DNA of 39,910 bases from a virus. Both the position numbers and the translations under genes were made by a program. The stretch covers positions 1 through 39,910 of the IMG/VR virus record IMGVR_UViG_3300037264_006287; one strand, written 5' to 3'. Shown here piece by piece: positions 1-19,704 of this stretch. Under the pieces are notes generated by a model that was not told the origin of the DNA, searched no databases, and worked only from the letters and a program-made list of their open reading frames with translations. How positions within the stretch are numbered: position 1 is the first letter of the stretch; each line of letters begins with the position of its first letter.

Positions 1-47
1 GTCAGGAACGAAAAGTTGGTGGCGATGTAAGGCCCCCTGGCATACCC

Positions 48-395
48 CTACCGCCCGTGTACCTTGTTATGGCAGCTCTGGCACGATGACGCCAGGTTGG
101 ACTCGTCATTGGTTCCGCCTTGCGCGATAGGCACTCTATGGTGCACCAGCACGGCGCGCTGCCCACACCGCTGACACCACGGATGGGCGGCCAGGTAGCG
201 CTTGCTTATCTCCTGCCATCCCGCGTCGTAGCCCCGCTCTGCCGCTGTCCCTCGTTGCGTGCGTTGCTCGTATCTGTCCCGCACCACGTTCGCCGCCACC
301 TGCCGCTCGCGTTGGTGCTGCAGGCAGTAGCGCCCTACATGCACCAGGGCCGGGCATCCCGGCTGGCTACAGGGACGGGCCGCGCGCTGGGGCAT
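48..395 (-). CDS. HNH endonuclease
   Basis: A 115-residue HNH nuclease. The N-terminus has a Cys/His cluster (CSQPGC, then C and H near residues 24-27), then an Arg-rich segment ending in RGYDAGWQ. The HNH core is at the C-terminus: CQRC at about 74-77, VHHRVP at about 84-89, and the closing SNLASSCQSCHNKVH. Phage HNH proteins of this type sit just upstream of the small terminase and in HK97-like systems help TerL cut and package DNA. That matches here if the genome is circular, because the next gene in the same direction across the window end is TerS. The start overlaps the end of the preceding 70-residue gene by 29 bases. Confidence 0.9.
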   Translation of the reverse strand: MPQRAARPCSQPGCPALVHVGRYCLQHQRERQVAANVVRDRYEQRTQRGTAAERGYDAGWQEISKRYLAAHPWCQRCGQRAVLVHHRVPIAQGGTNDESNLASSCQSCHNKVHGR

Positions 396-579
396 CGGTC
401 TCTCCCGGCAGAAATCCGGCCGGCGGCCCTTGGTCGATCCGGGCTACCAGATCGTCGATCACGGCCACCAGGTCGGCGCTTGCCACAGACTGGTTGATCG
501 CCCGCGTGCGGATGCCCTTCAAAAGATCGACGAGCAGGAACAGATCGACGCGCGCGCGGGGATCGAGCAGCGGGATCAT
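367..579 (-). CDS. hypothetical protein, 70 residues
   Basis: I do not recognise a family. The protein starts MIPLLDPRAR and has two predicted amphipathic helices (about residues 10-26 and 33-48) followed by a Pro/Gly-rich tail. The ATG at 579 is preceded by GGGAGAAAAG, a usable ribosome site. The reading frame stays open further upstream, but that part overlaps the membrane-protein gene and has shadow-like composition. It overlaps the end of the upstream gene by 4 bases (ATGA) and the HNH gene downstream by 29 bases, so it is translated within the same late operon. Small, possibly a regulator or packaging accessory; no function is assigned. Confidence 0.55.
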   Translation of the reverse strand: MIPLLDPRARVDLFLLVDLLKGIRTRAINQSVASADLVAVIDDLVARIDQGPPAGFLPGETDAPARGPSL

Positions 580-929
580 CTTTTCTCCCGTGTTGGCGCG
601 CCAACACGCGGCGACTTGTACCCCAGGCCCAGGGCGACGACCACGCGGTGCAACAGCGTCCCGGCGCCGAAGGCGATGCCGCTGGCCTCGAGGGCCGCCA
701 GGAGCACGGTCCACCAATCAGGTACCCCCGCGCAGCCCTGCCAGCCAGCGGCCAGCCACATCACAAAGGAAAAGAGCAGGCACAGCCCGAGAAAGACGAG
801 CTGCTTCCACTTGGCCGCCAGGTCCTGGTAGCCCGCCCAGAACTCGATGATCACGGCGATCGCCGCCCCGACGAGGGCGGCCAGGGCGACCGCGTTCCAA
901 CCCTGAGCGAGAAAAGTGCAGAAAGACAT
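576..929 (-). CDS. membrane protein, holin-like
   Basis: A 117-residue protein with three hydrophobic segments (about residues 13-29, 40-60 and 72-96) separated by short charged turns, and a basic tail ending PTREKR. Size, segment number and position at the head of the late operon fit a holin, but no family motif proves it. The start is ATG at 929, with GGAGG 7 bases upstream; the longer upstream frame is Gly/Pro/Arg-rich shadow. It lies in a run of three short membrane-protein genes with overlapping ends. An alternative role is a superinfection-exclusion or virion-associated membrane protein. Confidence 0.6.
   Translation of the reverse strand: MSFCTFLAQGWNAVALAALVGAAIAVIIEFWAGYQDLAAKWKQLVFLGLCLLFSFVMWLAAGWQGCAGVPDWWTVLLAALEASGIAFGAGTLLHRVVVALGLGYKSPRVGAPTREKR
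590..607. repeat. 18-base perfect palindrome, shared with 15150-15166
   Basis: The sequence GTGTTGGCGCGCCAACAC is a perfect palindrome at the very end of the membrane-protein gene and about 11 bases before the start of the 70-residue gene. A near copy (16 of 17 positions, GTGTTCGCGCGCCAACA) lies just upstream of the cytosine methyltransferase gene at 15150. It could be a protein-binding site or a hairpin near a ribosome site. Its role is inference. Confidence 0.5.
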
Positions 930-1051
930 GGGCACACCTCCCACAGACTTAGGCCAGCGATTCCCGCCGGCGAGGCGAACAGGAGTAACAGCACGAGCAC
1001 CACCACCAGGACCAGGAGGAGCAGCAGACAGTACCACGTCAATTTGCTCAT
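851..1051 (-). CDS. small single-pass membrane protein
   Basis: The reading frame gives 66 residues. The first half is a convincing membrane segment (MSKLTWYC followed by an unbroken run of Leu/Val to about residue 25); the second half overlaps the next gene by 79 bases and looks less protein-like. The start ATG overlaps the stop of the previous gene (ATGA), a typical translational coupling. Possible holin partner or antiholin; function not established. Confidence 0.5.
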   Translation of the reverse strand: MSKLTWYCLLLLLVLVVVLVLLLLFASPAGIAGLSLWEVCPCLSALFSLRVGTRSPWPPSSGRRSP

Positions 1052-1311
1052 GGCCGCTCCCGGTGCCGATCCCGCACCTCGTCACAGAGCGTGTTGACCA
1101 ACGTCTGTAATGTGACGACCGCGGCCGTGGCTAGGGTCCAGGCGGCGGTCGATTTTTCCACCAGTTCCGCCAGGCGCTGGGTCCATTTCTCCATTAGCGC
1201 CAGCATAGCGGTACTCTGGCGGCTATAGAGATTGAGCAGAATCAGGGCGAAAACAATGGCGATGGAGATGTTGGCGAAAGTAAAAATCCAGGCCGGAATC
1301 TCAGTCAGCAT
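1048..1311 (-). CDS. membrane-anchored late protein, first gene of the late operon
   Basis: An 87-residue protein with one membrane segment near the N-terminus (residues about 7-26, WIFTFANISIAIVFALILL) and a helical, partly charged cytoplasmic or periplasmic part containing EKWTQRLAELVEK. This layout is seen in phage lysis proteins of the holin/spanin neighbourhood, but I cannot place it in a family. ATG at 1311 has GGAG upstream at a 5-6 base gap and is preferred over ATG 1317. It directly follows the late promoter at 1338-1366. Confidence 0.6.
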   Translation of the reverse strand: MLTEIPAWIFTFANISIAIVFALILLNLYSRQSTAMLALMEKWTQRLAELVEKSTAAWTLATAAVVTLQTLVNTLCDEVRDRHRERP

Positions 1312-1337
1312 GGTCACTCCAATTACCAGGATAGTTC

Positions 1338-1366
1338 ATTATACCATATTCCCAAATGTCCGTCAA
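1338..1366 (-). promoter_or_regulatory. late-operon sigma-70 promoter
   Basis: On the minus strand the -35 box TTGACG (1366-1361) is separated by 17 bases from a perfect TATAAT (1343-1338). Transcription would begin about 20 bases upstream of the first late gene (start 1311). It is the only strong leftward promoter I can see for the whole structural operon. Confidence 0.85.
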
Positions 1367-1408
1367 TAGCCCTATGTAAGTCAAATCGCAACAGCTTACA
1401 TTATTTTG

Positions 1409-1442
1409 GCCCTTTTGGGGAGCAGTTTTCGAGCAAAAGGGC
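1409..1442. promoter_or_regulatory. inverted repeat between divergent promoters
   Basis: Perfect 9-base arms GCCCTTTTG (1409-1417) and CAAAAGGGC (1434-1442) with a 16-base spacer lie midway between the leftward late promoter and the rightward early promoter. The position suits an operator for a regulator of both; a transcriptional hairpin is the alternative. Confidence 0.55.
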
Positions 1443-1461
1443 AATCTGGTCCCCCACGCCC

Positions 1462-1490
1462 TTGACAAATTGCTATCCCTATGATATAAT
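1462..1490 (+). promoter_or_regulatory. early promoter with GATAGC-type operator boxes
   Basis: Consensus TTGACA (1462-1467), 17-base spacer, TATAAT (1485-1490). Two direct copies of TGCTATC (1471-1477 in the spacer, 1493-1499 just after the -10 box) lie 22 bases apart, about two helical turns, so a regulator bound there would cover the promoter. The -10 region and right-hand box match the promoter at 15061-15089. Confidence 0.9.
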
Positions 1491-1532
1491 GATGCTATCA
1501 GATACGGAATAGCCGAGCATACAGGAGGACAG

Positions 1533-1772
1533 ATGGAAGCCACAATCAAGAGCACCGCCGGCAGGCAACTGGTACTGGAAGTCGGGGCGCAGCAGCAGCT
1601 GATCGATAGCGACCAGGTCGCCGCCATCATCGCCAACATCCAGGGCCGCGGCACTCTCCGCATCTGGACGCAGGGCCTGGACAAAGAAGCCCTGGACGCC
1701 GCGCTGACGGCGGCCGGCCTGCGCGGATTCGCGGCGGCCCAGGCCACCGGCCGGGGCTACATCGACCTGTAG
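1533..1772 (+). CDS. hypothetical protein, first gene of RHH module 1
   Basis: A 79-residue soluble protein starting MEATIKST with AGGAGG at a good distance. The sequence suggests an alpha/beta fold: strands near ATIKST and LVLEV, then helices QVAAIIANI and KEALDAALTAAG. I do not recognise a family. It is the first gene under the early promoter and is followed by an RHH regulator. The equivalent position in the second module (14754-15017) is filled by an unrelated-looking 87-residue protein, so this slot appears to be exchangeable. It could be a partner or effector of the regulator. Confidence 0.7.
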   Translation: MEATIKSTAGRQLVLEVGAQQQLIDSDQVAAIIANIQGRGTLRIWTQGLDKEALDAALTAAGLRGFAAAQATGRGYIDL

Positions 1773-1815
1773 GTGAGTGGGGGCCGCGCATCCTGACACG
1801 CGGGAGGAGAATGTG

Positions 1816-2181
1816 ATGAAAGACATTTTGATTCGAAGCCTGGAGGAGGACCTGGTCGCGGCGCTGGACAATGCCGCCACCCTCGCGGGCCTTTCCCGCG
1901 AAGAGTACCTGCGCGGGGAGCTGGCCCGGATCGCCGGCGCCACCCTGGTGCCCCGGTTCGGCCATGGCCTGCGGGCCTTCACGCCCACGGGGGGCACGTG
2001 TGTGCTCAAGGCCCTGGGGGCGGAGAGCGCACAGGTCCAGGGCGGCGCGCAGAACCTCAGCCAATCCGAGATGGAGGCCTTCCGGCGCGCCAAGCTGCTG
2101 GCGGCCCCGGCGAACGGCGGCCGCTGGGCCGCGGCCCGGCAAGTATTGGAACAAGCCGGCTTCGAGATTTTTGCGGAGTAA
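1816..2181 (+). CDS. ribbon-helix-helix type regulator (copy 1)
   Basis: A 121-residue protein. Its N-terminus, DILIRSLEEDLVAALDNAA then LAGLSREEYLRGEL, has the strand-helix-turn-helix pattern of Arc/CopG/FitA-like RHH DNA-binding proteins. The C-terminal two thirds (GHGLRAFTPTGG, LKALGAES, and a final helical part ending GFEIFAE) is shared with the gene at 14331-14708, which is clearly a paralogue. ATG 1816 follows GGAGGAGA; the upstream in-frame codons are leader. RHH proteins bind short repeated sites as dimers of dimers, so the TGCTATC boxes at the two module promoters are the natural targets. Autoregulation is inference. Confidence 0.75.
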   Translation: MKDILIRSLEEDLVAALDNAATLAGLSREEYLRGELARIAGATLVPRFGHGLRAFTPTGGTCVLKALGAESAQVQGGAQNLSQSEMEAFRRAKLLAAPANGGRWAAARQVLEQAGFEIFAE

Positions 2182-2200
2182 AGCTCCCTCTTGCCCTCAC

Positions 2201-2232
2201 CCCCGCCCGGGCCCGCGCCGGGCGGGGTTTTT
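2201..2232 (+). terminator. rho-independent terminator after RHH module 1
   Basis: Perfect 10-base stem CCCCGCCCGG / CCGGGCGGGG with a 7-base loop, followed by TTTTT. It separates module 1 from the next promoter, so the module is its own transcription unit with probable partial read-through. Confidence 0.9.
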
Positions 2233-2247
2233 GGCGGATTCCGCCAA
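2231..2247. promoter_or_regulatory. 17-base palindrome, possible operator
   Basis: TTGGCGGA-T-TCCGCCAA is a perfect inverted repeat that starts in the terminator T-tract and lies about 40 bases upstream of the next promoter. It could be an upstream operator or simply an extension of the terminator region. Confidence 0.4.
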
Positions 2248-2287
2248 ATATTGGTCGAAAGATGACGGAAACCGGCGCGAAAACCTA

Positions 2288-2316
2288 TTGACTCTTGGTC
2301 AGGGCTGATATATAAT
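2288..2316 (+). promoter_or_regulatory. promoter of the 2351 operon, with GATAGC boxes
   Basis: TTGACT (2288-2293), 17-base spacer, TATAAT (2311-2316). GATAGCA at 2330-2336 and GATAGC at 2344-2349 follow; the second box sits between the Shine-Dalgarno AGGAG and the start codon at 2351. The same hexamer marks the two RHH-module promoters, which points to common control. Confidence 0.85.
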
Positions 2317-2350
2317 GGCCCTGTACCGCGATAGCACTCAGGAGATAGCG

Positions 2351-2566
2351 ATGAACCACAACCGCGCCGGGCACATCCAATTGATGTCGTTCAGCCTCAA
2401 AGCCAAGCTGCAAGCCCTCTCGGAGCAGCGTGCCGAATCCCTGAACGACACCGTGAAGGCCGTCATCGCGGCCGGGATTGTCCAGCTCACGAAGGACGAC
2501 CGGCCCACCTTTGAACTGCCCGCCCACGTCCGCGAGGAAACGGCGCAGGAGGCCAGCAATGTCTAG
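2351..2566 (+). CDS. small helical protein, possible RHH regulator
   Basis: A 71-residue protein starting MNHNRAGHIQLMSF. The segment IQLMSFSLKAKLQALSEQRAESLNDTVKAVIAAGI follows a beta-strand, helix, turn, helix pattern like a compact RHH DNA-binding domain; the tail is charged. The start is set by CAGGAG upstream of ATG 2351; the extra upstream codons contain the promoter. First gene of its operon, with GATAGC boxes in its leader, so autoregulation is plausible. Family assignment is tentative. Confidence 0.65.
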   Translation: MNHNRAGHIQLMSFSLKAKLQALSEQRAESLNDTVKAVIAAGIVQLTKDDRPTFELPAHVREETAQEASNV

Positions 2567-2942
2567 ATTCGTGAATCTCACCCCCCACATTATGCACATC
2601 GGCGACCGCTCTTTCCCGGCCAGTGGGATGATTGCCCGGTGCGCCGAGAGCACCACCCCGGCGGGGGAGTTCGCTGGCCTCCCGCTGGTCCACCGCGCTT
2701 ATGGCGCGGTGGAGAACCTGCCCCATCCGGCCCCGGACACGCTCTACATTGTGTCGGCCCTGGTGCGCGAGGCCGTGCCCTGGCGTACCGACGTGGCCTC
2801 TCCCGGCGACATGCTCCGCGATGCCGAGGGGCGGATCCTCGGTTGTACGAACCTGATTGTCAACGCCGCGGACGAGCCACGCTTTATGACGGAAGCCGAG
2901 GCCCGGACCCTGCTGGCGGCACTGGAGGCCCCCCATGCCTAA
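2559..2942 (+). CDS. hypothetical protein, 127 residues
   Basis: Starts MSRFVNLTPHIMHIGDRSFPASG and ends in a helix rich in Ala/Glu. The opening, FVNLTPH with hydroxyl and proline residues and a following ALVREAVP segment, resembles small phage or plasmid proteins of unknown function that begin with a similar NLTPH motif. No catalytic motif is visible. It overlaps the previous gene by 8 bases and the next by 8 bases, consistent with translational coupling. Cytosolic; function unknown. Confidence 0.75.
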   Translation: MSRFVNLTPHIMHIGDRSFPASGMIARCAESTTPAGEFAGLPLVHRAYGAVENLPHPAPDTLYIVSALVREAVPWRTDVASPGDMLRDAEGRILGCTNLIVNAADEPRFMTEAEARTLLAALEAPHA

Positions 2943-3135
2943 CGACACCCGCTGTCAGCACAGCGCTTGCCCCAACCCGGATACCCTGCCGGTGCGGATG
3001 TACGGCGGCGACCCCGGCGACCGGATGTACTACTGCAAAGAGCACGCCGCTAAGAACGGCCTGCTCCATAGGATAGACTGGACTGCGGTACGCGCCCGGA
3101 ACGCCCTGGCCGCAACGGAGGCCGCCCATGACTGA
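2935..3135 (+). CDS. small Cys/His protein, probable zinc-binding
   Basis: A 66-residue protein with CQHSACP (Cys about 7 and 12) and a later YYCKEHA, giving a C-x4-C...C-x2-H pattern that would bind one zinc ion. Phage early regions often carry such treble-clef-like mini-proteins with no known role. Coupled to its neighbours by 8-base overlaps at both ends. Confidence 0.65.
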   Translation: MPNDTRCQHSACPNPDTLPVRMYGGDPGDRMYYCKEHAAKNGLLHRIDWTAVRARNALAATEAAHD

Positions 3136-3832
3136 AACCACGCTCCGCTGCACTATTGACCAATTGCTCTCCTGGCGCCCCTGCTCGAAATGGCCGGAAT
3201 CCCGCATCCGCCAGTACGCCCGCGGTCGCGCGACCTTCACCGCCCTGGACGTGCTGCGGCTGCGCTCCGTATCCGCGGAGCACCGGCTGTGGGTCGTGCT
3301 GCGCGAGGAAATGATTCCCGCGGCCACCCTGCATGAATTTGCCTGCCGCTGCGCGGAGCAGGTACTCCCGCTCTACGAGCGTGAATATCCTGGCGACAGC
3401 CGCCCCCGCGACGCCATCACCGCCAAACGGGCCTGGCTGCGCGGTGAAATCACGGATGCCAAATTAGGCGCCGCCGAGTCCGCCGCCGAGTCCGCCGCCA
3501 GGTCCGCCGCCGAGTCCGCCGCCTGGTCCGCCGCCAGGTCCGCCGCCTGGTCCGCCGCCTGGTTCGCCGCCGAGTCCGCCGCCGAGTCCGCCGCCAGGTC
3601 CGCCGCCGAGTCCGCCGCCTGGTCCGCCGCCTGGTCCGCCGCCTGGTTCGCCGCCGAGTCCGCCGCCGAGTCCGCCGCCAGGTCCGCCGCCGAGTCCGCC
3701 GCCTGGTCCGCCGCCAGGTCCGCCGCCTGGTTCGCCGCCGAGTCCGCCGCCGAGTCCGCCGCCAGGTCCGCCGCCGAGTCCGCGCAGGTACTCCTGCTCA
3801 AGCGCATGCTCCAGGAGTCCGCCCATGACTGA
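3128..3832 (+). CDS. Ser-Ala-Ala-X tetrapeptide repeat protein
   Basis: A 234-residue protein in two parts. Residues 1 to about 114 form a globular domain (LLSWRPCSKWPESRIRQYARG, EHRLWVVLREEMIP, HEFACRCAEQVLPLYE). From about 115 to 220 the sequence is a strict SAAX repeat with X = Glu, Arg or Trp and an occasional Phe for Ser. The repeat is ordered in about 3.5 longer blocks of 28-32 residues. A short tail VLLLKRMLQESAHD closes it. A four-residue period suits a long helix with charged/aromatic residues winding slowly round it. It shares the start MTETTL with the next gene. Function unknown; an interaction or spacer rod is a guess. Confidence 0.75.
   Translation: MTETTLRCTIDQLLSWRPCSKWPESRIRQYARGRATFTALDVLRLRSVSAEHRLWVVLREEMIPAATLHEFACRCAEQVLPLYEREYPGDSRPRDAITAKRAWLRGEITDAKLGAAESAAESAARSAAESAAWSAARSAAWSAAWFAAESAAESAARSAAESAAWSAAWSAAWFAAESAAESAARSAAESAAWSAARSAAWFAAESAAESAARSAAESAQVLLLKRMLQESAHD
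3470..3786 (+). repeat. 12-base tandem repeat inside the SAAX gene
   Basis: About 26 units of a 12-base pattern of the form TCCGCCGCC followed by GAG, AGG or TGG. The units are arranged in 3.5 longer copies of 84-96 bases. Expansion by slippage is likely. The repeat keeps all six frames open, which explains the long reverse-strand frames here. Confidence 0.95.
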
Positions 3833-4244
3833 AACCACCCTGCTCACCGCCGCTGAACTCTGCGCCTTCCTGGACCAGCATCCGGACGTCGAGGCCCGCG
3901 CGATCCTGGCCCGCGACCTCAGCGCCGCACACTACATCCTCGAACCCTACGAGGTCGCCGTCTGTCGGGGCGTGCTGCGGGGCGATCCCGTCGCCCGCGC
4001 GGAATTCCCGGCCGTCCGCGACCGTATTATGGCGCGCTGGAGCGCCTCGACGCGACCCACCGACGAAGCGCATACGGATACATCGCAACGTGGAGACGAA
4101 GGCACGTCGGTGGGTCCCGCCGGAGCGTGCGCCAGCGCCCTGGCTCTCTCCTCCTTTCGGCCGGCCGGTGAGGGATCCAACCTCCCGGCCGGTCCGGAGA
4201 AGATCACGACGGAGTGGACGCTGACGATCCGGAGGCCGCGATGA
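3825..4244 (+). CDS. hypothetical protein, 139 residues
   Basis: The first 70 residues (ELCAFLDQHPDVEARAILARDLSAAHYILEPYEVAVCRGVL) are helical and protein-like; the rest is low-complexity and probably disordered, ending TIRRPR. No family recognised. It begins MTETTL, like the gene before it, suggesting a local duplication of the start region, and overlaps that gene by 8 bases. The stop overlaps the next ATG (ATGA). Confidence 0.6.
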   Translation: MTETTLLTAAELCAFLDQHPDVEARAILARDLSAAHYILEPYEVAVCRGVLRGDPVARAEFPAVRDRIMARWSASTRPTDEAHTDTSQRGDEGTSVGPAGACASALALSSFRPAGEGSNLPAGPEKITTEWTLTIRRPR

Positions 4245-4729
4245 AGCTCGCGACGTACTGCCACCACTGGCAGCTCACCCGGCTCGCCTGCCTGTTACAC
4301 GGCGCCTGCGCGGATCCGGAGCACTGCCCCGACTATCGCGACGCCGTCGCCATTGCCCGCGAGTACGATCAGGTGCTGGCCAGCCCCCCGGAGCCCCCGG
4401 CTCGACCCGCCCCCCGGCCCGTGCCGGGCCCGGAATGCGCCACCCCCCTGCAGCTGTGCGGACGCGACGCCCAGTGCGCGTGCCCGGAGCACCACACCTA
4501 CCGGGTGCGCCGCAGCGCCCGCCGCCGCTGCCCGGTCTGTGGGGAGCAGCTGGTGACCTTCGGCCTGACCGATCCGACCTGGATCATCAACCGACTGATT
4601 TACTTCCTCTGCCCCTGCGGCCACGTGACCCGGGACAGCCGGGAGCTCGTCAACCCCAACGGCCCGGGGCGCTACGGCGGCCAACGCTGGAGCCCGCGCA
4701 CCGGGCGGCTGCTCGCCCGAAAGCGGTAG
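4241..4729 (+). CDS. zinc-ribbon protein, 162 residues
   Basis: Contains CRVR-type spacing with CPVCGEQLV (about 102-110) and a later LCPCGHVTRD (about 132-141), giving a CxxC...CxC zinc-ribbon pair; an N-terminal Cys/His-rich part (CHHWQLTRLACLLHGAC) may hold another site. A Pro-rich linker joins the two halves. Start ATG 4241 overlaps the upstream stop. Last gene before the 4749 promoter. Probably a nucleic-acid-binding accessory protein; function not known. Confidence 0.65.
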   Translation: MKLATYCHHWQLTRLACLLHGACADPEHCPDYRDAVAIAREYDQVLASPPEPPARPAPRPVPGPECATPLQLCGRDAQCACPEHHTYRVRRSARRRCPVCGEQLVTFGLTDPTWIINRLIYFLCPCGHVTRDSRELVNPNGPGRYGGQRWSPRTGRLLARKR

Positions 4730-4748
4730 GTTGGCAAGGTGCTGGCTA

Positions 4749-4777
4749 TTGACAAACGCTCAACTTTGTGCTATACT
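4749..4777 (+). promoter_or_regulatory. promoter of the 4962 gene
   Basis: Consensus TTGACA (4749-4754), 17-base spacer, TATACT (4772-4777). A TGCTAT half-box overlaps the -10 region (4769-4774). It would give a leader RNA of about 180 bases before the start codon at 4962. Confidence 0.85.
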
Positions 4778-4823
4778 GTCTCTGCGCGAGGAAAAAGAAG
4801 CGCGGGCCGTGGCGGGCCTAAAC

Positions 4824-4928
4824 ACGAGTAAGATCGGCCTTTGGATTCTGGGCCGGCTGCCAGACCGTACTCGTTGCGGAACCGCTACCGGCACCGGCAC
4901 AGAATCGAGAGGCCGATTTTTAATCGGC
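4824..4928 (+). ncRNA. structured leader RNA with pseudoknot potential
   Basis: The 5' leader of the 4962 gene. Visible pairings: (1) ATCGGCCT (4833-4840) + GATTCTG (4844-4850) with CAGAATC (4900-4906) + AGGCCGAT (4910-4917), a 15-base-pair helix with one 3x3 internal loop; (2) ACGAGTA (4824-4830), outside that helix, with TACTCGT (4868-4874) inside its loop, which would make a pseudoknot; (3) GCGG-AA-CCGC (4876-4885) inside the loop; (4) GCCGAT-TTTTA-ATCGGC (4912-4928), which competes with helix 1. Mutually exclusive helices just upstream of a ribosome site are typical of regulatory leaders. No known riboswitch class is recognised. Confidence 0.6.
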
Positions 4929-4961
4929 GCAGGGCTGGGCTAGAAAAGCAAGGAGCACCCA

Positions 4962-11215: not shown

Positions 11216-12236
11216 CTGGTGGTGCCGCCTCTACTCTGAGGTCGTGGACGACGACAAGCTCACCTGGATCGCTGACACCACGGGGGAGCGGCGGGTGGTG
11301 ATCTTGGGGGTATGGTCCGGCCTGCTGGCCCTGGCCAATCGCTCCCCCCAGCGCGGCGCGTTGCTGCTGGCCGAGGGCGTCCCATACACTGTCCCGATGC
11401 TGGCGCGCAAGCTGGACATTGACGCTCCCGAACTGGAAAGCATCATGACCGCAATGGCCCAAATTGGCCTGATCAATGATGGGCATTTAGTCGCTTTCGA
11501 CAAGCGCAATCCGGTGAGTGACGATGCTACGACCCGCCAGCAGGAGCGCCGCGCGCGCGGGATTGCTGTCCCCGTTGTCACGGATTTGTCACGTGACAAG
11601 GTTGTGACACCGGCCGTCGTTGTCACACCTGCCTCTATCTCTACTATTACTATAGCTCTTCCTCTTTCTCTCTCTTCAGGGGAGGGGGAGTCTGAGGGGG
11701 AGGGGGCCGCGCCGCCCAACGACCCGCCCGCGGTGGAGGTCGATGTCTGCCTGGCGGCGCTCGTACCCGTCCTGGAGGCCGCCGGCCTGGTGTTCAACGA
11801 CCTGGCGGCCGCGGAGCTGATCAGCACGATCCAGGAGCATCCCCGTACCGACGAGCAGATCGCGGCGCGCGTCCTCCAGGCGCTGATTCCGAATCTCCCA
11901 AAAGGGGACCGGATTACGCCGGCGTTCGTCGGCCAGGTCCTGGAGCTGACGCAAGACTTCCCGGAGGCCGAGATCCACGCGGCCATCGCCTCCGCCCCGT
12001 CCGATCGCTGCCGGCCGAGCTACATCCGCGGCACCATTGTCGGGCAGGCCCGCGACCGCCACAACGGCAATAATAAAGAGAGCCCGCCCGCCCCCGACGA
12101 GAGCAAGACATTCTGGCGGAAGCACAACCTATCCCGGCAAGAATATGCTAACAAGTACCCCTCCACCGTGGCTCAAATCAACGAATGGGAGGCCACGCAT
12201 GGCCTGCCCCTAACTATTCCGGGAGGTGCCCCGTGA
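11199..12236 (+). CDS. DnaD-like phage replication protein
   Basis: A 345-residue protein. The N-terminal domain (DWWCRLYSEVVDDDKLTWI, VVILGVWSGLLALANRSPQRG, LARKLDIDAPELESIMTAMAQIGLI, GHLVAFDKRNP) is the winged helix of phage replisome-organiser proteins, with the usual GxLxxFDKRN ending. A low-complexity Thr/Ser/Glu linker (about 105-165) leads to a helical C-terminal domain. Such proteins bind the phage origin and recruit the host helicase. The linker-coding DNA (11610-11700) has T/C runs and an A/T-containing stretch that could be part of an origin. ATG 11199 lies within the end of the HNH gene. Confidence 0.7.
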   Translation: MPKQRDWWCRLYSEVVDDDKLTWIADTTGERRVVILGVWSGLLALANRSPQRGALLLAEGVPYTVPMLARKLDIDAPELESIMTAMAQIGLINDGHLVAFDKRNPVSDDATTRQQERRARGIAVPVVTDLSRDKVVTPAVVVTPASISTITIALPLSLSSGEGESEGEGAAPPNDPPAVEVDVCLAALVPVLEAAGLVFNDLAAAELISTIQEHPRTDEQIAARVLQALIPNLPKGDRITPAFVGQVLELTQDFPEAEIHAAIASAPSDRCRPSYIRGTIVGQARDRHNGNNKESPPAPDESKTFWRKHNLSRQEYANKYPSTVAQINEWEATHGLPLTIPGGAP

Positions 12237-12745
12237 AACTTTTTGACGCGACGACGCGCGTAACCGAGGCCTCGTACTACCACGCGACGCGGCGGGGGCA
12301 GCTCATCGATGGGCTGAAGGAGCAGGGGCTCCTGCCGGGCAGCCGGGAGTTTGCCACCGCGCTGTGGGCCGCCGAGGACGAAAGCTACCGCGCGCGGCAG
12401 CGGCAAATCGCGCGGGAATGCGGCCTGGTCCTGGACGCCCAAACGGGGGACATGGCCGCCCTGGCCCACGGGCGCGGCCGCCCCGGCGAGCCGGGTAGCA
12501 ACTGGCGCGTCGACCCGGCGACGATCCGCAATCCGGCCGTCTATCGGCGCCATGCGGAGGATAGGCAGCGGGCGACCGCGGCGTGCGCGCGGGCCGGTAT
12601 CCCGGTGGACGAAAAAGGTTTCGCTGACTATCGCCAGGACTGGCTGCTGCGGGTGCCGCGCCGGCCGGCACCAGCGGCACCCCCAGCCCCGGCCCCGGCG
12701 CGCCAGGTGCGGTTGCCCTATCCCGACGACGACAAGGAGGATTGA
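12233..12745 (+). CDS. hypothetical protein, 170 residues
   Basis: GTG start (overlap GTGA with the previous stop), opening KLFDATTRVTEASYYHATRRGQLI. It has charged helical stretches, KSYRARQRQIARECG, and a Pro/Ala-rich C-terminal part ending PYPDDDKED, an acidic tip that often mediates contact with single-strand-binding or helicase proteins. No family recognised. The position after the DnaD-like gene suggests a replication accessory such as a helicase loader. Confidence 0.65.
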   Translation: MKLFDATTRVTEASYYHATRRGQLIDGLKEQGLLPGSREFATALWAAEDESYRARQRQIARECGLVLDAQTGDMAALAHGRGRPGEPGSNWRVDPATIRNPAVYRRHAEDRQRATAACARAGIPVDEKGFADYRQDWLLRVPRRPAPAAPPAPAPARQVRLPYPDDDKED

Positions 12746-12747
12746 CC

Positions 12748-14274
12748 ATGAACGCTCTCGAAACGAAAGTGCTACTCTCCCTGATCAACCAGGCCGCGCG
12801 CCAGGCCGCCGTGATCGACCGGCTGACCCGGCTGGTAGAGGAGCGCGGTTGCGTTTCCCGCATAACTGCCCCAATTGCGCCAACTGAGCTCGCGCGCCGT
12901 ATGGTTTTCGCTCGCGAAAAGGCCGCGCAGGCCTGGTGCGAACCAACTACCAGCGACCGGCTAATGGACGTGGCGCTGGCCGAGGCGTTCGCCGGGATCC
13001 TCGTCGCGGAGATGTACCTTCCAAAACTGGGCTGCGCGACGACGGGCGAACTGCTCCGCGAGCTCGAGGCGCGGATCGCAACGGGCTCGCTCGAACTGGA
13101 TTACAGCACCATCGGAGGAAGCCATGCTCACCCTGATTCTCGCCATGCAAGCGGCGCTGAACACGCCGTGCCTGGTACTACCTATAGCGACCCCGTCTAC
13201 GCCCGCAACATCGCCTACCCCCGTTGCGTTATCCGGGAAAGTGACCTACTACAGCCAGAGGTGGGACTGGACCCGGATCGCCGCGAACCACGGCTTGGTG
13301 CTCCCGCCGGGATTGACGCCGCTCGCGACGTGGGATTGTCGGCTGCTCGGGCGGACTGGCTGGCTCACGCTCGGGAGCTCTGTCTGGCCCGTGTTCGTAG
13401 CGGATTGCACCGCGAGCCAGGACCTGGCGCTGGTGCGGCGCCGGAGGATCATCGCGGAGATTCCGTGGGACCTGGCGGCGAGCACCCCGGGAATGCTCCA
13501 GGACGGCTGGACGACGGGGGCACTGCTGCTCGCGCCGATTGCTGGTGGCGCGACCTCGACTGTGAGGACTGGGCCTGCCGGACTGCCCAGAGCGGCAATC
13601 CCTGCCCCGACTGCCTGGACTACAAGCCGCCCGTTCCCGCGGCCGTGGTAGCGCCGCCGCGCACCATCTGGGACGCCGCCGACGTGGATCCGGACACCTG
13701 CCCGGACGAGCCGGTCGATCATGCCGCACCCACCGCGCGCCCGGGGCCGGCAGTCGGCGTGAGCGTCGGCGGCCGGTATCGCGAGGGCTGCGAGCGCCAG
13801 GGTGACACGCCCCTCCAGCTGGGGGCCTGCCGCTATTGCAGCGAATATGAGCCGGCCGCTCCCGCAACCGTGGTAGCGGAACCGCCCGCCGCGACGCGCG
13901 TCTGCGTCATCATCGATTGCGGCTGCTTGGCGGAACCTCGTTCCGCCTACTGCGAGACGCACCAGCAGGAGCGGCGCCGGGCCGAACGCGCTGAGTATCA
14001 GCGGCGCCGGCGGGAGAAGCGAAAGGTATCGGCGGAGCCACCCCCCGCGGCGCTGCCGGTTGAACCGTTCCCCGTGCCGCGCCTGGTCTCGTTTCACAAG
14101 GCGTGCACCCGCTGCAACCAGCAGAAAACCTGGGCCGATTTTGCGCCGGGCTACGAGGGCACGATCGACCAGCTCGATTTCCTCTGCTCCGACTGCCGGG
14201 CGCGGGCCACGGCGGAGAAAGCCGCCCGGGCTGGGCGTACAGTCCACGCCGCGGCCGCGGCGGAGGGAGCGTGA
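12748..14274 (+). CDS. 508-codon composite frame with C-terminal zinc-binding motifs
   Basis: The frame is open from ATG 12748 (AAGGAGG 7 bases upstream) to 14274, but only parts look like protein. Residues 1 to about 120 are convincing (NALETKVLLSLINQAARQAAVIDRLTRL, AEAFAGILVAEMYLPKLG). Residues about 130-255 are Arg/Gly/Pro shadow of the gene at 13124. From about residue 258 it is convincing again: two copies of a Cys motif (DCEDWACR...CPDCLDYKP and GCERQGD...CRYCSEYEP), then VIIDCGCLAEPRSAYCETHQQE and CTRCNQQKTWADF...FLCSDCRA, two zinc knuckles. The last part has no Met codon. Either one long protein with an embedded gene, or separate genes joined by frameshifting. Confidence 0.55.
   Translation: MNALETKVLLSLINQAARQAAVIDRLTRLVEERGCVSRITAPIAPTELARRMVFAREKAAQAWCEPTTSDRLMDVALAEAFAGILVAEMYLPKLGCATTGELLRELEARIATGSLELDYSTIGGSHAHPDSRHASGAEHAVPGTTYSDPVYARNIAYPRCVIRESDLLQPEVGLDPDRREPRLGAPAGIDAARDVGLSAARADWLAHARELCLARVRSGLHREPGPGAGAAPEDHRGDSVGPGGEHPGNAPGRLDDGGTAARADCWWRDLDCEDWACRTAQSGNPCPDCLDYKPPVPAAVVAPPRTIWDAADVDPDTCPDEPVDHAAPTARPGPAVGVSVGGRYREGCERQGDTPLQLGACRYCSEYEPAAPATVVAEPPAATRVCVIIDCGCLAEPRSAYCETHQQERRRAERAEYQRRRREKRKVSAEPPPAALPVEPFPVPRLVSFHKACTRCNQQKTWADFAPGYEGTIDQLDFLCSDCRARATAEKAARAGRTVHAAAAAEGA
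13124..13651 (+). CDS. exported protein with RlpA/DPBB-like core, nested in the 12748 frame
   Basis: A 175-codon frame with a good ribosome site (GGAGGAAGCC) before ATG 13124. It has a hydrophobic start (MLTLILAMQAALN, signal-peptide-like), a Thr/Pro linker, then GKVTYYSQRWDWTRI, LATWDCRLLGRTGWLTLGS and VFVADCTASQDLA. The YYS and VADC pattern recalls double-psi beta-barrel (RlpA-like) wall-associated proteins. Two Cys could be paired. The last 40 residues look like shadow of the other frame, so the natural end may be a -1 shift into the zinc-motif region near 13520. Could act on the cell wall; evidence is modest. Confidence 0.6.
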   Translation: MLTLILAMQAALNTPCLVLPIATPSTPATSPTPVALSGKVTYYSQRWDWTRIAANHGLVLPPGLTPLATWDCRLLGRTGWLTLGSSVWPVFVADCTASQDLALVRRRRIIAEIPWDLAASTPGMLQDGWTTGALLLAPIAGGATSTVRTGPAGLPRAAIPAPTAWTTSRPFPRPW

Positions 14275-14290
14275 TGGCCGGACAAGGCAA

Positions 14291-14315
14291 AGCCGCCCCC
14301 ACGGGCGGGGCGGCT
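14291..14315. terminator. GC-rich hairpin between convergent genes
   Basis: AGCCGCCCC (14291-14299) and GGGGCGGCT (14307-14315) form a perfect 9-pair stem with a 7-base loop, located between the stop of the rightward operon (14274) and the stop of the leftward RHH module (14331). No T-tract follows, so a strict rho-independent terminator is not certain. Confidence 0.6.
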
Positions 14316-14330
14316 ACGAGCAACCGGCGA

Positions 14331-14708
14331 TTATTCCGCGAAGACCTCGAAGCCGGCGGCCGCCAGGACCGCGCGGGCCTCCGCCCACTTCGCGCCGTTG
14401 GCCGGGGCCGCCAGGAGCGCGGCCCGCTGATAGGCGGCCGTCTCGGCGCTGGTGAGATCCCGCGCGCCCTTCTGGATCTGCTGGCTCTCGGCTCCGAGCG
14501 CCTTCAGCAGGCACATCCCGCCGGTGGGGGTGAAGGCCCGCAGTCCGTGGCCGTAGCCGGGCCGAAAGGCCAGGCCTTCGTGCCCGACCAGGTCGGCCAG
14601 GGCCCCGCGCAGGTACTCTTCGCGGGACAGGCCCACGAGGGTGGCGGCATTGTCCAGCGCCGCGACCAGGTCGTCGTCCAATCCACGAATCAGAATATCC
14701 TTGCTCAT
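14331..14708 (-). CDS. ribbon-helix-helix type regulator (copy 2)
   Basis: A 125-residue paralogue of the 1816 gene. It shares the N-terminal RHH-like part (KDILIRGLDDDLVAALDNAA, GLSREEYLRGAL), the middle (GHGLRAFTPTGG, LKALGAES) and the end (AAPANG, AGFEVFAE); most differences are conservative. The two proteins could form mixed dimers and bind the same TGCTATC boxes. The preceding spacer also matches that of copy 1 (18 identical bases, GTGGGGGCCGCGCATCCT). AGGAG lies before ATG 14708. It runs against the main early operon from its own promoter. Confidence 0.75.
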   Translation of the reverse strand: MSKDILIRGLDDDLVAALDNAATLVGLSREEYLRGALADLVGHEGLAFRPGYGHGLRAFTPTGGMCLLKALGAESQQIQKGARDLTSAETAAYQRAALLAAPANGAKWAEARAVLAAAGFEVFAE

Positions 14709-14753
14709 CTCGTGCTCCTATCCGCGTGTAGGATGCGCGGCCCCCACTTTTTC

Positions 14754-15017
14754 CTAGCGCCAGTAGGGATCGCCCATCGCGGGTTCGGGGCGATCGGTAG
14801 TGCGCTCGCCCGTCCACACCGGGGCGGGAAAGTGGATGTAGGCGCAGTTGGGGCCGCAAGCGATGCCGTGCGCTTCCAGGGCGGCCTTCGCCGCGCGCCA
14901 GTCAGCGGTCAGGTCGAAGCGATTGATTTCCACCCCGCCGCGCGTCCAGAGAATTTCGGCCCCGGCCAGGATGTCTGTGAGTTCGTTCAAGAGGTTCTCG
15001 ATCTGCTTCTTTTCCAT
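14754..15017 (-). CDS. hypothetical protein, first gene of RHH module 2
   Basis: An 87-residue protein starting MEKKQIENLLNELTDIL, with a likely strand part GAEILWTRGGVEINRFDL and a helix DWRAAKAALEAHGIACG. No family recognised. It holds the same place as the 1533 gene in module 1, yet I see no sequence similarity beyond a partly comparable alpha/beta order, so it may be an alternative partner or effector. AAGGAG lies just before its start. Confidence 0.65.
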   Translation of the reverse strand: MEKKQIENLLNELTDILAGAEILWTRGGVEINRFDLTADWRAAKAALEAHGIACGPNCAYIHFPAPVWTGERTTDRPEPAMGDPYWR

Positions 15018-15028
15018 TTCAATCTCCT

Positions 15029-15079
15029 TGCTATCCGGCTATCCTGTACTCGATAGCATCATTATATCATAGTGCTATC
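15029..15079. promoter_or_regulatory. cluster of four GATAGC/GCTATC operator boxes
   Basis: TGCTATC at 15029-15035, GGCTATC at 15037-15043, GATAGCA at 15052-15058 and TGCTATC at 15073-15079. The last two form an inverted pair around the -10 box of the leftward promoter; the first two lie in the leader just before the start of the 87-residue gene. Confidence 0.75.
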
Positions 15080-15089
15080 ATCCTGTCAA
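15061..15089 (-). promoter_or_regulatory. promoter of RHH module 2
   Basis: On the minus strand TTGACA (15089-15084), 17-base spacer, TATAAT (15066-15061). The -10 region and its flank, CTATGATATAATGATGCTAT, are identical to the module 1 promoter at 1479-1498. Confidence 0.9.
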
Positions 15090-15149
15090 GAGGCCATAGT
15101 AGAACACGGTACGGCTAAAAGTAGCACGAGTTATGGAGTTTTTTGACTA

Positions 15150-15166
15150 GTGTTCGCGCGCCAACA
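15150..15166. repeat. near copy of the 590-607 palindrome
   Basis: GTGTTCGCGCGCCAACA, followed at once by GCGCGC, so that GCGCGC-CAACA-GCGCGC can also fold as a hairpin just before the Shine-Dalgarno of the methyltransferase gene. It may be an operator or a translational control hairpin. Confidence 0.5.
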
Positions 15167-15183
15167 GCGCGCAAGGAAAAGCA

Positions 15184-15909
15184 ATGAGCGACCGTCGTCC
15201 TCTTTTACTCGATCTCTTCTGCGGTGCCGGTGGCGCGGCTGTCGGTTACGCCCGCGCCGGGTTTGACGTGGTGGGCGTGGACAACGTGCCGCAGCCGCGC
15301 TACCCGTTCCCTTTTATCCAGGCTGACGCGTTGGAGTATTGCGCGGCGCACGGGAGTGAGTACGACGTGATTCATGCCTCGCCGCCGTGCCAGCGGTATA
15401 GTAGCATGGGCCGGGCCACTGGCACAAATGGCAATCATCCTGATTATATCGCCATAACCAGAACGCTACTACGGGAATCTGGCCGGCTGTGGGTGATTGA
15501 GAATGTAGTGGGCGCGCCCCTATCCTGTCCCATCACGCTCTGTGGGGCCATGTTTGGATTGCGTGTCTATCGTCATCGGTTATTCGAGGCCAGTGTCATG
15601 CTCCTACAGCCACCCCGTCCCCGCCATATCCTCCGTGCCGCCCACGCCGGCAAAATCCCTGTCCCCGGTGAGTTTTGGTCGCCAGCGGGGTGCTTTGGGC
15701 AAAAGGATGACGCACAGCGGGCAATGGGCATTGACTGGATGGAAACGACCGGGGCGCGTTCCATCGAAATTGCCCAGTCCATCCCCCCGGCCTATACCGA
15801 ATTTGTCGGAAAGCAGTTACTATCCGCCCTGACCGCCTGGCGGGCAAAGGTCGGGGGGGTGGATGTCGTTACAGCCCCTGTCCTGACAGCAGAAACACCG
15901 CGAGGATGA
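15184..15909 (+). CDS. DNA (cytosine-5) methyltransferase
   Basis: A 241-residue C5-methyltransferase-type protein. Motif I DLFCGAGGAAVGYARAGF binds S-adenosylmethionine; VVGVDNVPQPRYP is motif II; motif IV ASPPCQRYS carries the catalytic Cys; VIENV is motif VI. A conserved end, RSIEIAQSIPPAYTEFVGKQLL, holds the IPP-Y motif X. At 241 residues the target-recognition part is very short compared with bacterial enzymes (over 300), as is usual for phage solitary enzymes. It would mark phage or host DNA, for protection from restriction or for regulation. No partner restriction gene is visible. TTGACT occurs upstream but without a clear -10 box. Confidence 0.9.
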   Translation: MSDRRPLLLDLFCGAGGAAVGYARAGFDVVGVDNVPQPRYPFPFIQADALEYCAAHGSEYDVIHASPPCQRYSSMGRATGTNGNHPDYIAITRTLLRESGRLWVIENVVGAPLSCPITLCGAMFGLRVYRHRLFEASVMLLQPPRPRHILRAAHAGKIPVPGEFWSPAGCFGQKDDAQRAMGIDWMETTGARSIEIAQSIPPAYTEFVGKQLLSALTAWRAKVGGVDVVTAPVLTAETPRG

Positions 15910-16103
15910 TGGACGTGGAAACGCAAGTAGAACAACCGGCCCGAATATGCTATAATGACTCTACCGATATCCGCCTCCCGCGCAACGTCATTGCCATGAT
16001 TGTCGCCTGTTTGCGCGAAGGTCTCGTGAGGACTGCCGATGAAGGCCGCGATCTACCTCCGAGTCTCGACCGAGGAACAGGCCAACCCGGACGAACATCA
16101 TAG
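15906..16103 (+). CDS. small protein upstream of the integrase
   Basis: A 65-codon frame starting at a tandem ATG that overlaps the end of the methyltransferase gene. The middle, NDSTDIRLPRNVIAMIVACLREGLV, looks like a real amphipathic helix; the last 20 residues overlap the integrase gene. An extended -10 promoter lies inside it, so it may be non-coding. If real, it could be an integrase accessory protein; this is speculative. Confidence 0.35.
   Translation: MMDVETQVEQPARICYNDSTDIRLPRNVIAMIVACLREGLVRTADEGRDLPPSLDRGTGQPGRTS
15948..15956 (+). promoter_or_regulatory. extended -10 promoter for the integrase
   Basis: TG-C-TATAAT (15948-15956) is an ideal extended -10 element about 80 bases upstream of the integrase start. 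No TTGACA-like -35 box stands 17 bases before it. It would give the integrase a transcript separate from the early operon. Confidence 0.55.
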
Positions 16104-17634
16104 CCTGCCCGCCCAGGAGCGCGCCTGTCGCGCCCTGGCCGCGGCGCGCGGCTGGGACGTGACTCTCGTCTATGCTGACGAGGGGGCCAGCGCCTCGAAG
16201 CGCGATCTCCGCAAGCGGCCATTTTTTCGCGCCTTCCTGGAGGACGCCGAGGCCGGCCGCTTTGACGTCGGGATCGTCCACAAGCTCGATCGCTTTGCTC
16301 GCAACCTCCCCGCGGCCCTCGACGCCTTCACCCGGCTGCAGGTGGCTAACGTCGCCCTGGTTAGCGTCGGCGAGAACCTGGACTTCTCCACGCCGGCCGG
16401 CCGGCTGCTCCTGCACAACATCCTCGCCGTCTCCCAGTTTTTCAGCGAGAACCTGGCCGACGAGACCCGCAAGGGCTGGAACGAGCGCGGACAGAAGGGC
16501 TACTGGCGCGGCGATCCGCCCTTTGGCTATTGCCGGGGACAATGCTCCACGTGCACCGAGCCCAACGGCCCGCGCTGCCCCCGCTACCAGGGGATAGATC
16601 CCCTGGGCCCGGCCCGCGAGCTCTATCCGCACCCTTGGGAGGCCTCGGGGGTCGCGTTAGCCTTCCAGTTCTGGGTGGACCAGGCCACGTGCTATCGCGA
16701 CGTCGCGGAGGCGCTGAATGCGGCCGGCTACCGGACGCACAACAAGCGCAGCGGGCCGGGGCTCTTCCCCGGCGATGCCCTGCGCCTGATCCTGACCAAT
16801 CCCTTCTACCTCGGCCAGGTGCGGGTCCGCGACCGCACCAGGGGCGGCCGCCACTATAATGTCGCTCCGGGACGGCACCCCGAGTTGATCACCCCCGAGC
16901 TGTGGGCGTTGGCCCAGGCGAAGGCCGCGACGATCTTTGCCCATGCTCCCCGCCGGCCACTCTGTGCGCAGCGCCCCTATCCCCTGGCCGGCGTGCTGCG
17001 CTGCAGCCGCTGCGGGGCGCTCCTCCGGGGCCAGGCCGATTCCCATGGCGTGCGCCGCTATTGCTGCGCGCGGCGGGACGAATTTGGGGCAGACCCGGCC
17101 ACGGGAGGCTGCGACATGCCCGGGCTGCGGGCGGACGAATGCGAGGCCCAGGTGCTCGCCCTCCTGGAGGGGATGGCCATCCCGCCGGCGGACCGGGAGA
17201 TGATCGAGGAGGCCCTGCATGCGCCGGCGCGGCCGGACGCTCCCAGCACGGCCGCGCTGCAGGAAAAGCTCGAGCGGCTGACCTGGCTCTACCAAGAGGG
17301 AGACATTGTACAAGAGGAGTATCGCCGGCGCAAGCTCATGCTCCAGGCCGACCTGGAACGGGCCCGCCCGCCGGCCCAGGGGGAGGTCCTGCGCGCGGTG
17401 GATCTGCTACAGAGCATCGGTTCCGCCTGGCGCACGGCCACGAACTGGAAGACGCAGAATGGTCTGCTGCGGGCCTTGTTCGATGGCATCTGGATGGCCG
17501 ACCCCGCCCGCGAACCCCGCATAGACGCCGTAAGGCCCCAGCCGGCGGTATTGCCGTACTGGAGCCTATTGGAGCGAACATACGGGGTCGAGGGGATTCG
17601 AACCGGAATGTTCCGCTTGCCCCCACTGCGCTAA
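16039..17634 (+). CDS. int: large serine recombinase (integrase)
   Basis: A 531-residue site-specific recombinase. The N-terminal resolvase domain opens MKAAIYLRVSTEEQ, with the catalytic Ser at position 10; VHKLDRFARN is the conserved active-site region with Arg. The recombinase domain spans about 155-270 (GYWRGDPPFGY, ILTNPFYLGQVR). A zinc ribbon follows (RCSRCGALLRG, then CC and C), and a coiled-coil part (AALQEKLERLTWLYQEGDIVQEEYRRRKLMLQADLER) precedes the end. It would join attP and host attB and need a directionality factor for excision. The C-terminal residues GVEGIRTGMFRLPPLR are encoded by a tRNA-like sequence, the likely attP core, so integration would change the protein's end. CGTGAGG lies upstream of ATG 16039. 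Confidence 0.95.
   Translation: MKAAIYLRVSTEEQANPDEHHSLPAQERACRALAAARGWDVTLVYADEGASASKRDLRKRPFFRAFLEDAEAGRFDVGIVHKLDRFARNLPAALDAFTRLQVANVALVSVGENLDFSTPAGRLLLHNILAVSQFFSENLADETRKGWNERGQKGYWRGDPPFGYCRGQCSTCTEPNGPRCPRYQGIDPLGPARELYPHPWEASGVALAFQFWVDQATCYRDVAEALNAAGYRTHNKRSGPGLFPGDALRLILTNPFYLGQVRVRDRTRGGRHYNVAPGRHPELITPELWALAQAKAATIFAHAPRRPLCAQRPYPLAGVLRCSRCGALLRGQADSHGVRRYCCARRDEFGADPATGGCDMPGLRADECEAQVLALLEGMAIPPADREMIEEALHAPARPDAPSTAALQEKLERLTWLYQEGDIVQEEYRRRKLMLQADLERARPPAQGEVLRAVDLLQSIGSAWRTATNWKTQNGLLRALFDGIWMADPAREPRIDAVRPQPAVLPYWSLLERTYGVEGIRTGMFRLPPLR
17584..17604 (-). other. attP: candidate attP core, identical in form to a tRNA 3' end
   Basis: The minus strand reads GGTTCGAATCCCCTCGACC plus CC: a T-loop (TTCGAAT), the 3' side of a T-stem, and a 7-base acceptor strand CGACCCC. 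The expected 5' acceptor strand GGGGTCG and a proper T-stem 5' side are absent, so only the tRNA 3' end is present, as in attachment sites copied from a host tRNA. It lies inside the last 50 bases of the integrase gene. Confidence 0.65.
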
Positions 17635-17646
17635 GAAGGCAGGGGG
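17620..17646. terminator. hairpin between integrase and late operon
   Basis: CCCC(C)-A-CTGC (17620-17629) pairs with GCAG-GGGG (17639-17646), about 8 pairs with one bulged A and a 9-base loop. It lies where the rightward integrase transcript meets the leftward late operon. No T-tract, so termination is uncertain. Confidence 0.35.
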
Positions 17647-17658
17647 CTGGTCCACTGA

Positions 17659-17865
17659 CTACCGCGCTACGATCTGCACCTGCACCTGCCCCTGGCCGTC
17701 CTCCCAGATAAAGGCGCCGGTGATCTGGCACTGGTAGCGCTCCAGGATTGGCTGAATCTCCCGGGCGCACTCCTGAACCCGCCACTGCCGATCGCGCTCC
17801 AGGGCCGCCTGGGCCATGGCGGCCGAAATCTCGGCCCGCTCCGGTGCTACCGCGGGTGGCTCCAT
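17659..17865 (-). CDS. hypothetical protein, last gene of the late operon
   Basis: A 68-residue protein starting MEPPAVAPERAEISAAM, helical to about residue 45 (AALERDRQWRVQECAREIQPILERY), then a strand pair (ITGAFIWEDGQGQVQVQIVAR). The start at 17865 is set by AGGAGG; the extra upstream residues are shadow. No family recognised; possibly a tail-tip or fibre accessory by position. Confidence 0.6.
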   Translation of the reverse strand: MEPPAVAPERAEISAAMAQAALERDRQWRVQECAREIQPILERYQCQITGAFIWEDGQGQVQVQIVAR

Positions 17866-17875
17866 GTTGCGCCTC

Positions 17876-18133
17876 CTATGGTTGCAGCGGCCAGATGGTG
17901 GGGCTGTTGCCATCCAACGCGCCCTTGACGTTGTTCACGGCGGCCACGGCGGCCACGAACTCGGCCGCCGCCAGGTCGGCATTCGCCCCGCCGAAATCAC
18001 CATCCTCCAGGGCGGCCGCGTAGCCCAGCGCCGCGTACTGGGCATACAGCGCGGCCCAATCCGCATAGAACCGCGCTAGGATGTCCGCCACGGTCTGGCG
18101 GGTCCGGCTAATGAAATCTGATTTGTTGGTCAT
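17876..18133 (-). CDS. hypothetical protein, 85 residues
   Basis: Starts MTNKSDFISRTRQTVADILARFYADW and continues with an Ala-rich helical region (YAALGYAAALEDGDFGG, AAEFVAAVAAVNNVKGAL). Similar small helical proteins follow tail-fibre genes in other siphoviruses and can be fibre chaperones, which is inference here. GTAGGAGG lies before the start. It is 10 bases from the fibre gene. Confidence 0.65.
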   Translation of the reverse strand: MTNKSDFISRTRQTVADILARFYADWAALYAQYAALGYAAALEDGDFGGANADLAAAEFVAAVAAVNNVKGALDGNSPTIWPLQP

Positions 18134-18143
18134 GCGCCACCTC

Positions 18144-19694: not shown

Positions 19695-19704
19695 CAGGGC
19701 CTCC

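Follow-up and report, generated by a model that had tools for sequence, protein, structure and literature searches.

A long hairpin in the leader of a Gp3-like gene in a viral contig, tentatively read as an attenuator

The window analyzed here is a virus contig of 39,910 bases, in which a gene for a Gp3-like protein is preceded by a promoter and an untranslated leader. This leader is dominated by one long hairpin, the rod, whose stability is far above chance: its arms form 25 pairs with two single mismatches, and its 3' base runs into five uridines. The best explanation that we can offer, at a probability of about 0.4, is that this lineage-specific rod may act as a promoter-proximal partial terminator (attenuator) of the Gp3-like operon.

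The upstream genes extend to position 4729 and are followed by a promoter of the form TTGACA-17-TATACT (Table 1), as the preliminary description of this DNA had claimed. It is the only promoter-like site within positions 3500-6500 (mean of shuffled sequences 0.2) and is among five sites in positions 1-20000 that match at least 11 of the 12 consensus positions. Transcription would start near 4784, leaving about 178 nt before the ATG at 4962, in agreement with the roughly 180 untranslated bases noted earlier. A 44-codon frame with a GTG start at 4809-4943 has neither a PHROGs match nor a close Shine-Dalgarno sequence, and the sequence offers no plausible gene between the promoter and ATG 4962. 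Perfect TTGACA-17-TATAAT promoters, each with a GATGCTATC...GATAGC-like dyad, accompany two copies of a two-gene module lying in opposite orientation at 1462-2181 (+) and 15089-14331 (-); the second genes of the copies are alike, and one weakly resembles FitA-like antitoxins (E 8e-4, below the cut-off).

The product of the 4962 gene matches Pfam PF18897 at 79.6 bits (cut-off 23.6), and a large serine integrase, the expected partner of a Gp3-like protein, is encoded in the same phage. Hence, the gene is Gp3-like as previously described, and a role as recombination directionality factor is plausible; the control of excision by an RNA switch, proposed along with it, is not supported.

Table 1. 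Features of the promoter, the leader and the associated genes in the window
Feature	Position	Strand	Remarks
Sigma-70-type promoter TTGACA-17-TATACT, extended -10 (TG)	4749-4777	+	consensus match only
5' UTR of the Gp3-like operon	4784-4961	+	ORF scan; leader z -3.55
7-nt complementary pair	4824-4830/4868-4874	+	stem within the transient early fold predicted at 4804-4895
Rod hairpin	4830-4920	+	outer 4830-4842/4908-4920, middle 4844-4850/4900-4906, inner 4852-4856/4894-4898, weaker tip
17-base palindrome GCCGATT-TTT-AATCGGC	4912-4928	+	minor alternative hairpin or possible DNA operator
UUUUU, terminator-like tail at the 3' base of the rod	4917-4921	+	some U's paired in the minimum-energy fold
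Gp3-like gene (recombination directionality factor-like), first after the leader	4962-6251	+	ribosome site near 4950
Large serine integrase, expected Gp3-like partner	16039-17634	+	Resolvase, Recombinase, Zn ribbon

No inverted repeat in the entire window outscores the rod, which reaches 21.0 in an ungapped scan against 16.0 for the runner-up. None of 1000 shuffles of the rod region is as stable (z -7.26), and the leader as a whole is equaled by 2 of 500 (z -3.55). The arms (4830-4856/4894-4920) contribute -43.5 kcal/mol, with pair probabilities of 0.71-1.0, mostly at or above 0.9, in the ensemble; the complete structure measures 91 nt and has a 10-nt bulge close to the tip. The 15-pair imperfect helix originally reported at 4833-4850/4900-4917 is thus correctly placed, with an extent that has to be enlarged to the 25 pairs given above. 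No Rfam family reaches its gathering score in the window, the best sub-threshold match being Pseudomon-groES (21.1 bits versus 50), in line with the earlier statement that the leader matches no familiar riboswitch class. Inverted-repeat matches that are long but weak are also numerous at 3537-3780; they come from the DNA repeats of a gene at 3128-3832, which encodes an Imm5-like protein with a long SAAESAARSAAW repeat.

On the attenuator reading, the Gp3-like operon would begin with this segment as its start module, composed of a strong promoter and a ~178-nt 5' UTR with the 25-pair rod. The rod would act at the RNA level, yielding a short RNA of ~138 nt alongside a Gp3-like mRNA made by read-through. 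In the emerging RNA an early fold (4804-4895) that contains a 7-nt pair would form first, and the rod would displace it once about 4905-4910 has been transcribed, just before the U-run. Predicted folding of growing transcripts shows the 7-nt pair inside this early fold and has the rod take over as the transcript end moves from 4904 to 4913. We favor the attenuator because the base of the rod has the GC-rich stem and adjoining U-run of an intrinsic terminator (GGCCGA, then UUUUU), T5 runs being rare on the + strand with 13 in the 39.9 kb, and because the hand-over is predicted just before it. A terminator-like stem-plus-TTTTT at 2201-2232 of the same phage also counts for this reading, as does a stretch of a syntenic relative (L254 2628-2780; folding z -5.81), in which a TTGACA-17-TATACT promoter, a hairpin, a canonical stem-plus-TTTTT terminator, a ribosome site and a gene start follow one another. 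Since this stretch has it, the promoter-leader-terminator-gene layout does occur in the phage group of the window. The gene that follows there is a small ORF that looks membrane-bound, and the layout is reminiscent of an antitermination-controlled late leader.

Several observations count against the attenuator. The rod is long and imperfect, and a standard scan of the + strand in 3500-6500 flags no compact terminator hairpin; a terminator scoring formula gives -12.7, which would be below its usual threshold. In the best fold, two to four of the U's are taken up in pairs with the 5' arm. As for the early fold, 56 of 1000 shuffles equal it (z -1.73). A canonical terminator within 250 nt was found for one of the 53 near-consensus promoters examined in the window and its relatives, namely the one in L254, and the window promoter at 4749-4777 is without one. 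Attenuator leaders share with the window a strong promoter, a short leader and a GC-rich stem adjoining a U-run, followed by a ribosome site and gene, whereas in the window the stem is an imperfect 91-nt rod, and neither a compact hairpin nor a sensing element has been identified. The antiterminator put RNA of HK022 is likewise an RNA element just 3' of a phage promoter; however, put RNAs comprise two stem-loops in ~70 nt (PMC9378689), and the single 91-nt rod does not conform to that description.

The most informative relative is L132, a 48-kb IMG/VR contig to which L254 also belongs, at a different place. In this contig a homologue of the 4214-4729 gene (47-50% identity) precedes a Gp3-like gene with 45% identity over 311 residues. 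DNA similarity (77% over 234 columns) stops at window position 4744, five bases 5' of the promoter, and between the same flanking genes two small ORFs (L132 3529-4087), without a PHROGs match, replace the promoter and leader of the window. There is no promoter-like site at the leader position in L132, the relevant + strand site being at 1630, and the window leader finds no match in the whole contig. As the similarity ends before the promoter and the leader has no match in that contig, the sequences indicate that promoter and leader form a lineage-specific block, and that the gene of the relative manages without them.

Broader searches point the same way. The preliminary description had proposed to look for the same leader in related phages, and it was found neither by DNA searches, nor with a covariance model built on one sequence, nor at 56 loci of Gp3-like relatives. 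At the DNA level the leader has no relatives in phages; against plasmids 24 records appear at E <=10, and the best 15 of these 24 are short and weak (E 0.1-6). The covariance model consists of two identical copies of one sequence and is hence weak: it finds nothing in 400 Chloroflexota genomes, a phylum picked because one Gp3-like relative sits in an Anaerolineales genome, and in 41 sources it returns the window, its reverse strand and 16.9-bit matches in two loci (same score). Among viral contigs, a DNA pattern derived from the rod matches no stretch, a second such pattern matches 12, none of which has a similar hairpin by eye and one of which has a nearby 8-mer partner, and a loose pattern for the outer stem matches at least 120 in a chance-like manner. 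In L132 and the best 80 of the at least 120 pattern loci the covariance model gives weak, unrelated matches.

Relatives of the Gp3-like protein were found in both viral contigs and genomes, and 56 of their loci, some of them near-duplicates, were scored for inverted repeats over 350 nt upstream of the gene or profile match; repeat contigs or near-identical copies (L059-L064, L066, L067 and L072) are left out of this count. None has a rod as strong as that of the window: the best relative scores 17.0 against 21.0, four of the 56 reach 15, and the median is 9. An association of Gp3-like genes with leaders of this kind is thus not supported.

What the window shares with the phiC31-type phages is more general. 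An ORF-free gap of 107-207 nt lies 5' of the directionality-factor gene in all 19 records examined, which comprise close Streptomyces phages and single phages of other hosts and were chosen among the 225 that match BT1 gp3; for C31 and Heather the gap is taken up to a start homologous to that of BT1 gp3 (annotated gaps 67 and 149). The two longer Gp3-like genes of mu1/6 and SF3 have no gap. Seven of the phiC31-type gaps were tested for folding, with z of -2.7 to -6.9. Hairpins are not specific to the gap before this gene, and that idea was dropped: hairpin content was scored in two phages, for gaps of 60 nt or more, and 21 of the 29 such gaps in BT1 and 13 of the 15 in the stretch of Nesbitt covered contain a hairpin. 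In the BT1 leader fold CUCCC is paired to the ribosome site, and an anti-Shine-Dalgarno function in phiC31-type leaders was likewise dropped, since the block involved in this pairing, GTCACCGACTCCCTT, is dispersed over 12 places in BT1 (L274; 18-base probe, at most 4 mismatches), all on the + strand (e.g. 22616, 30522, 31770, 36538); because of this recurrence it is more likely a promoter motif, probably BT1's own promoter or regulator site. The rod hairpins in three gaps before the directionality-factor gene (L058, L268, L258) have the tip CAGACACCTTCGGGTGCGTGGACA in common on otherwise different stems, and a close relative (L260) lacks it; it looks like a modular hairpin tip. These leaders are unrelated to the window in sequence, and the shared point is a modest one: a directionality-factor gene often follows a gap with room for its own promoter and leader.

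The main rival of the attenuator, which we regard as rather unlikely, is that the rod serves as an RNase III processing site or an mRNA-stabilising 5' hairpin, with cleavage setting mRNA life or Gp3-like translation. With its 25 pairs and two single mismatches the rod is above the size of ~22 bp at which a duplex becomes a target: PMC5371410 puts the minimum size of a target at 22 nt and counts RNAs of lambda, T7 and T3 among the targets, and a title in its references mentions the lambda N leader RNA. The phage leaders processed in this way, lambda N and the T7 early RNAs, also have a long duplex in the untranslated leader of an operon, above the size limit of the enzyme. However, any long hairpin would qualify.

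It is less probable again that the signal resides in the DNA, with the 17-base palindrome and the rod arms as operator half-sites or the inverted repeat as the scar of an inserted element. Three copies of ATCGGC do lie within 100 bases of one another, their orientation alternating, and the similarity of the relative ends at 4744, so that gain, loss or replacement affected the segment as one block. Against this, the palindrome has a single copy in the window, no target duplication is seen by eye at the ends of the rod, and copies elsewhere were not found in phages, plasmids, the 41 sources or the 400 Chloroflexota genomes. To a similar degree we doubt that the rod is without a role, tolerated in a spacer that arrived with the promoter: its single occurrence would fit, but random drift would erode what is the strongest inverted repeat of the window, unequaled in 1000 shuffles.

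The remaining proposals concern alternative structures around the rod. The preliminary description had combined a pseudoknot, between 4824-4830 and 4868-4874, with a second hairpin at 4912-4928. Our ensemble model cannot represent pseudoknots, and the former was judged by shuffles and geometry. The two complementary segments do exist; shuffling the upstream and loop segments, however, yields a 7-nt Watson-Crick match in 695 of 5000 cases, and in 1049 of 5000 once the downstream side also counts, which rules the pseudoknot out as an above-chance feature. Position 4830 adjoins the base of the rod, and with a linker of 0-1 nt its partner would have to be reached at the far end; a pseudoknot atop the full rod is sterically unlikely because 4868-4874 sits past a duplex of ~25 bp. 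The 7-nt helix is better explained, on the modeled folding, as part of the transient early fold replaced by the rod. The second hairpin is also real, a perfect 7-bp stem with a loop of 3 that overlaps and excludes the rod; yet 7-bp hairpins with loops of 3-8 are present in 357 of 5000 shuffled leaders, and both its energy (-8.9 kcal/mol versus -43.5 for the rod arms) and its pair probability (~1e-6 or less) rule it out as a true competitor.

One could extend the attenuator to a bistable device, in which a signal from phage or host holding the early fold 4804-4895 against the rod 4830-4920 before the U-run would allow read-through to the directionality-factor operon, such that RNA folding gates prophage excision; we consider this very doubtful, and the early fold is not significant as a selected alternative (56 of 1000). 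Least probable of all is the pseudoknot switch controlling excision through the directionality factor, for which the complementary segments, the Gp3-like gene and the serine integrase are at hand, but which would depend on a chance-level match reaching past the rod and on an outcompeted hairpin, in a phage whose relatives are without such a leader. In a literature that excludes most subscription journals, the term 'leader RNA' does not occur in the listed papers on directionality factors, and by title and opening part of the abstract the listed papers on directionality factors and riboswitches describe no RNA switch on such a gene.

Thus, the two most striking elements of the original report, the pseudoknot and the competing hairpin, do not rise above the level of shuffled sequences, and what stands out is simply a long hairpin: a real structure, ordinary in kind, the function of which we infer. 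It belongs to a phage group for which the collections searched contain few close relatives. If the rod terminates transcription or is processed, it would provide simple control, at the RNA level, of a gene that probably determines prophage excision.
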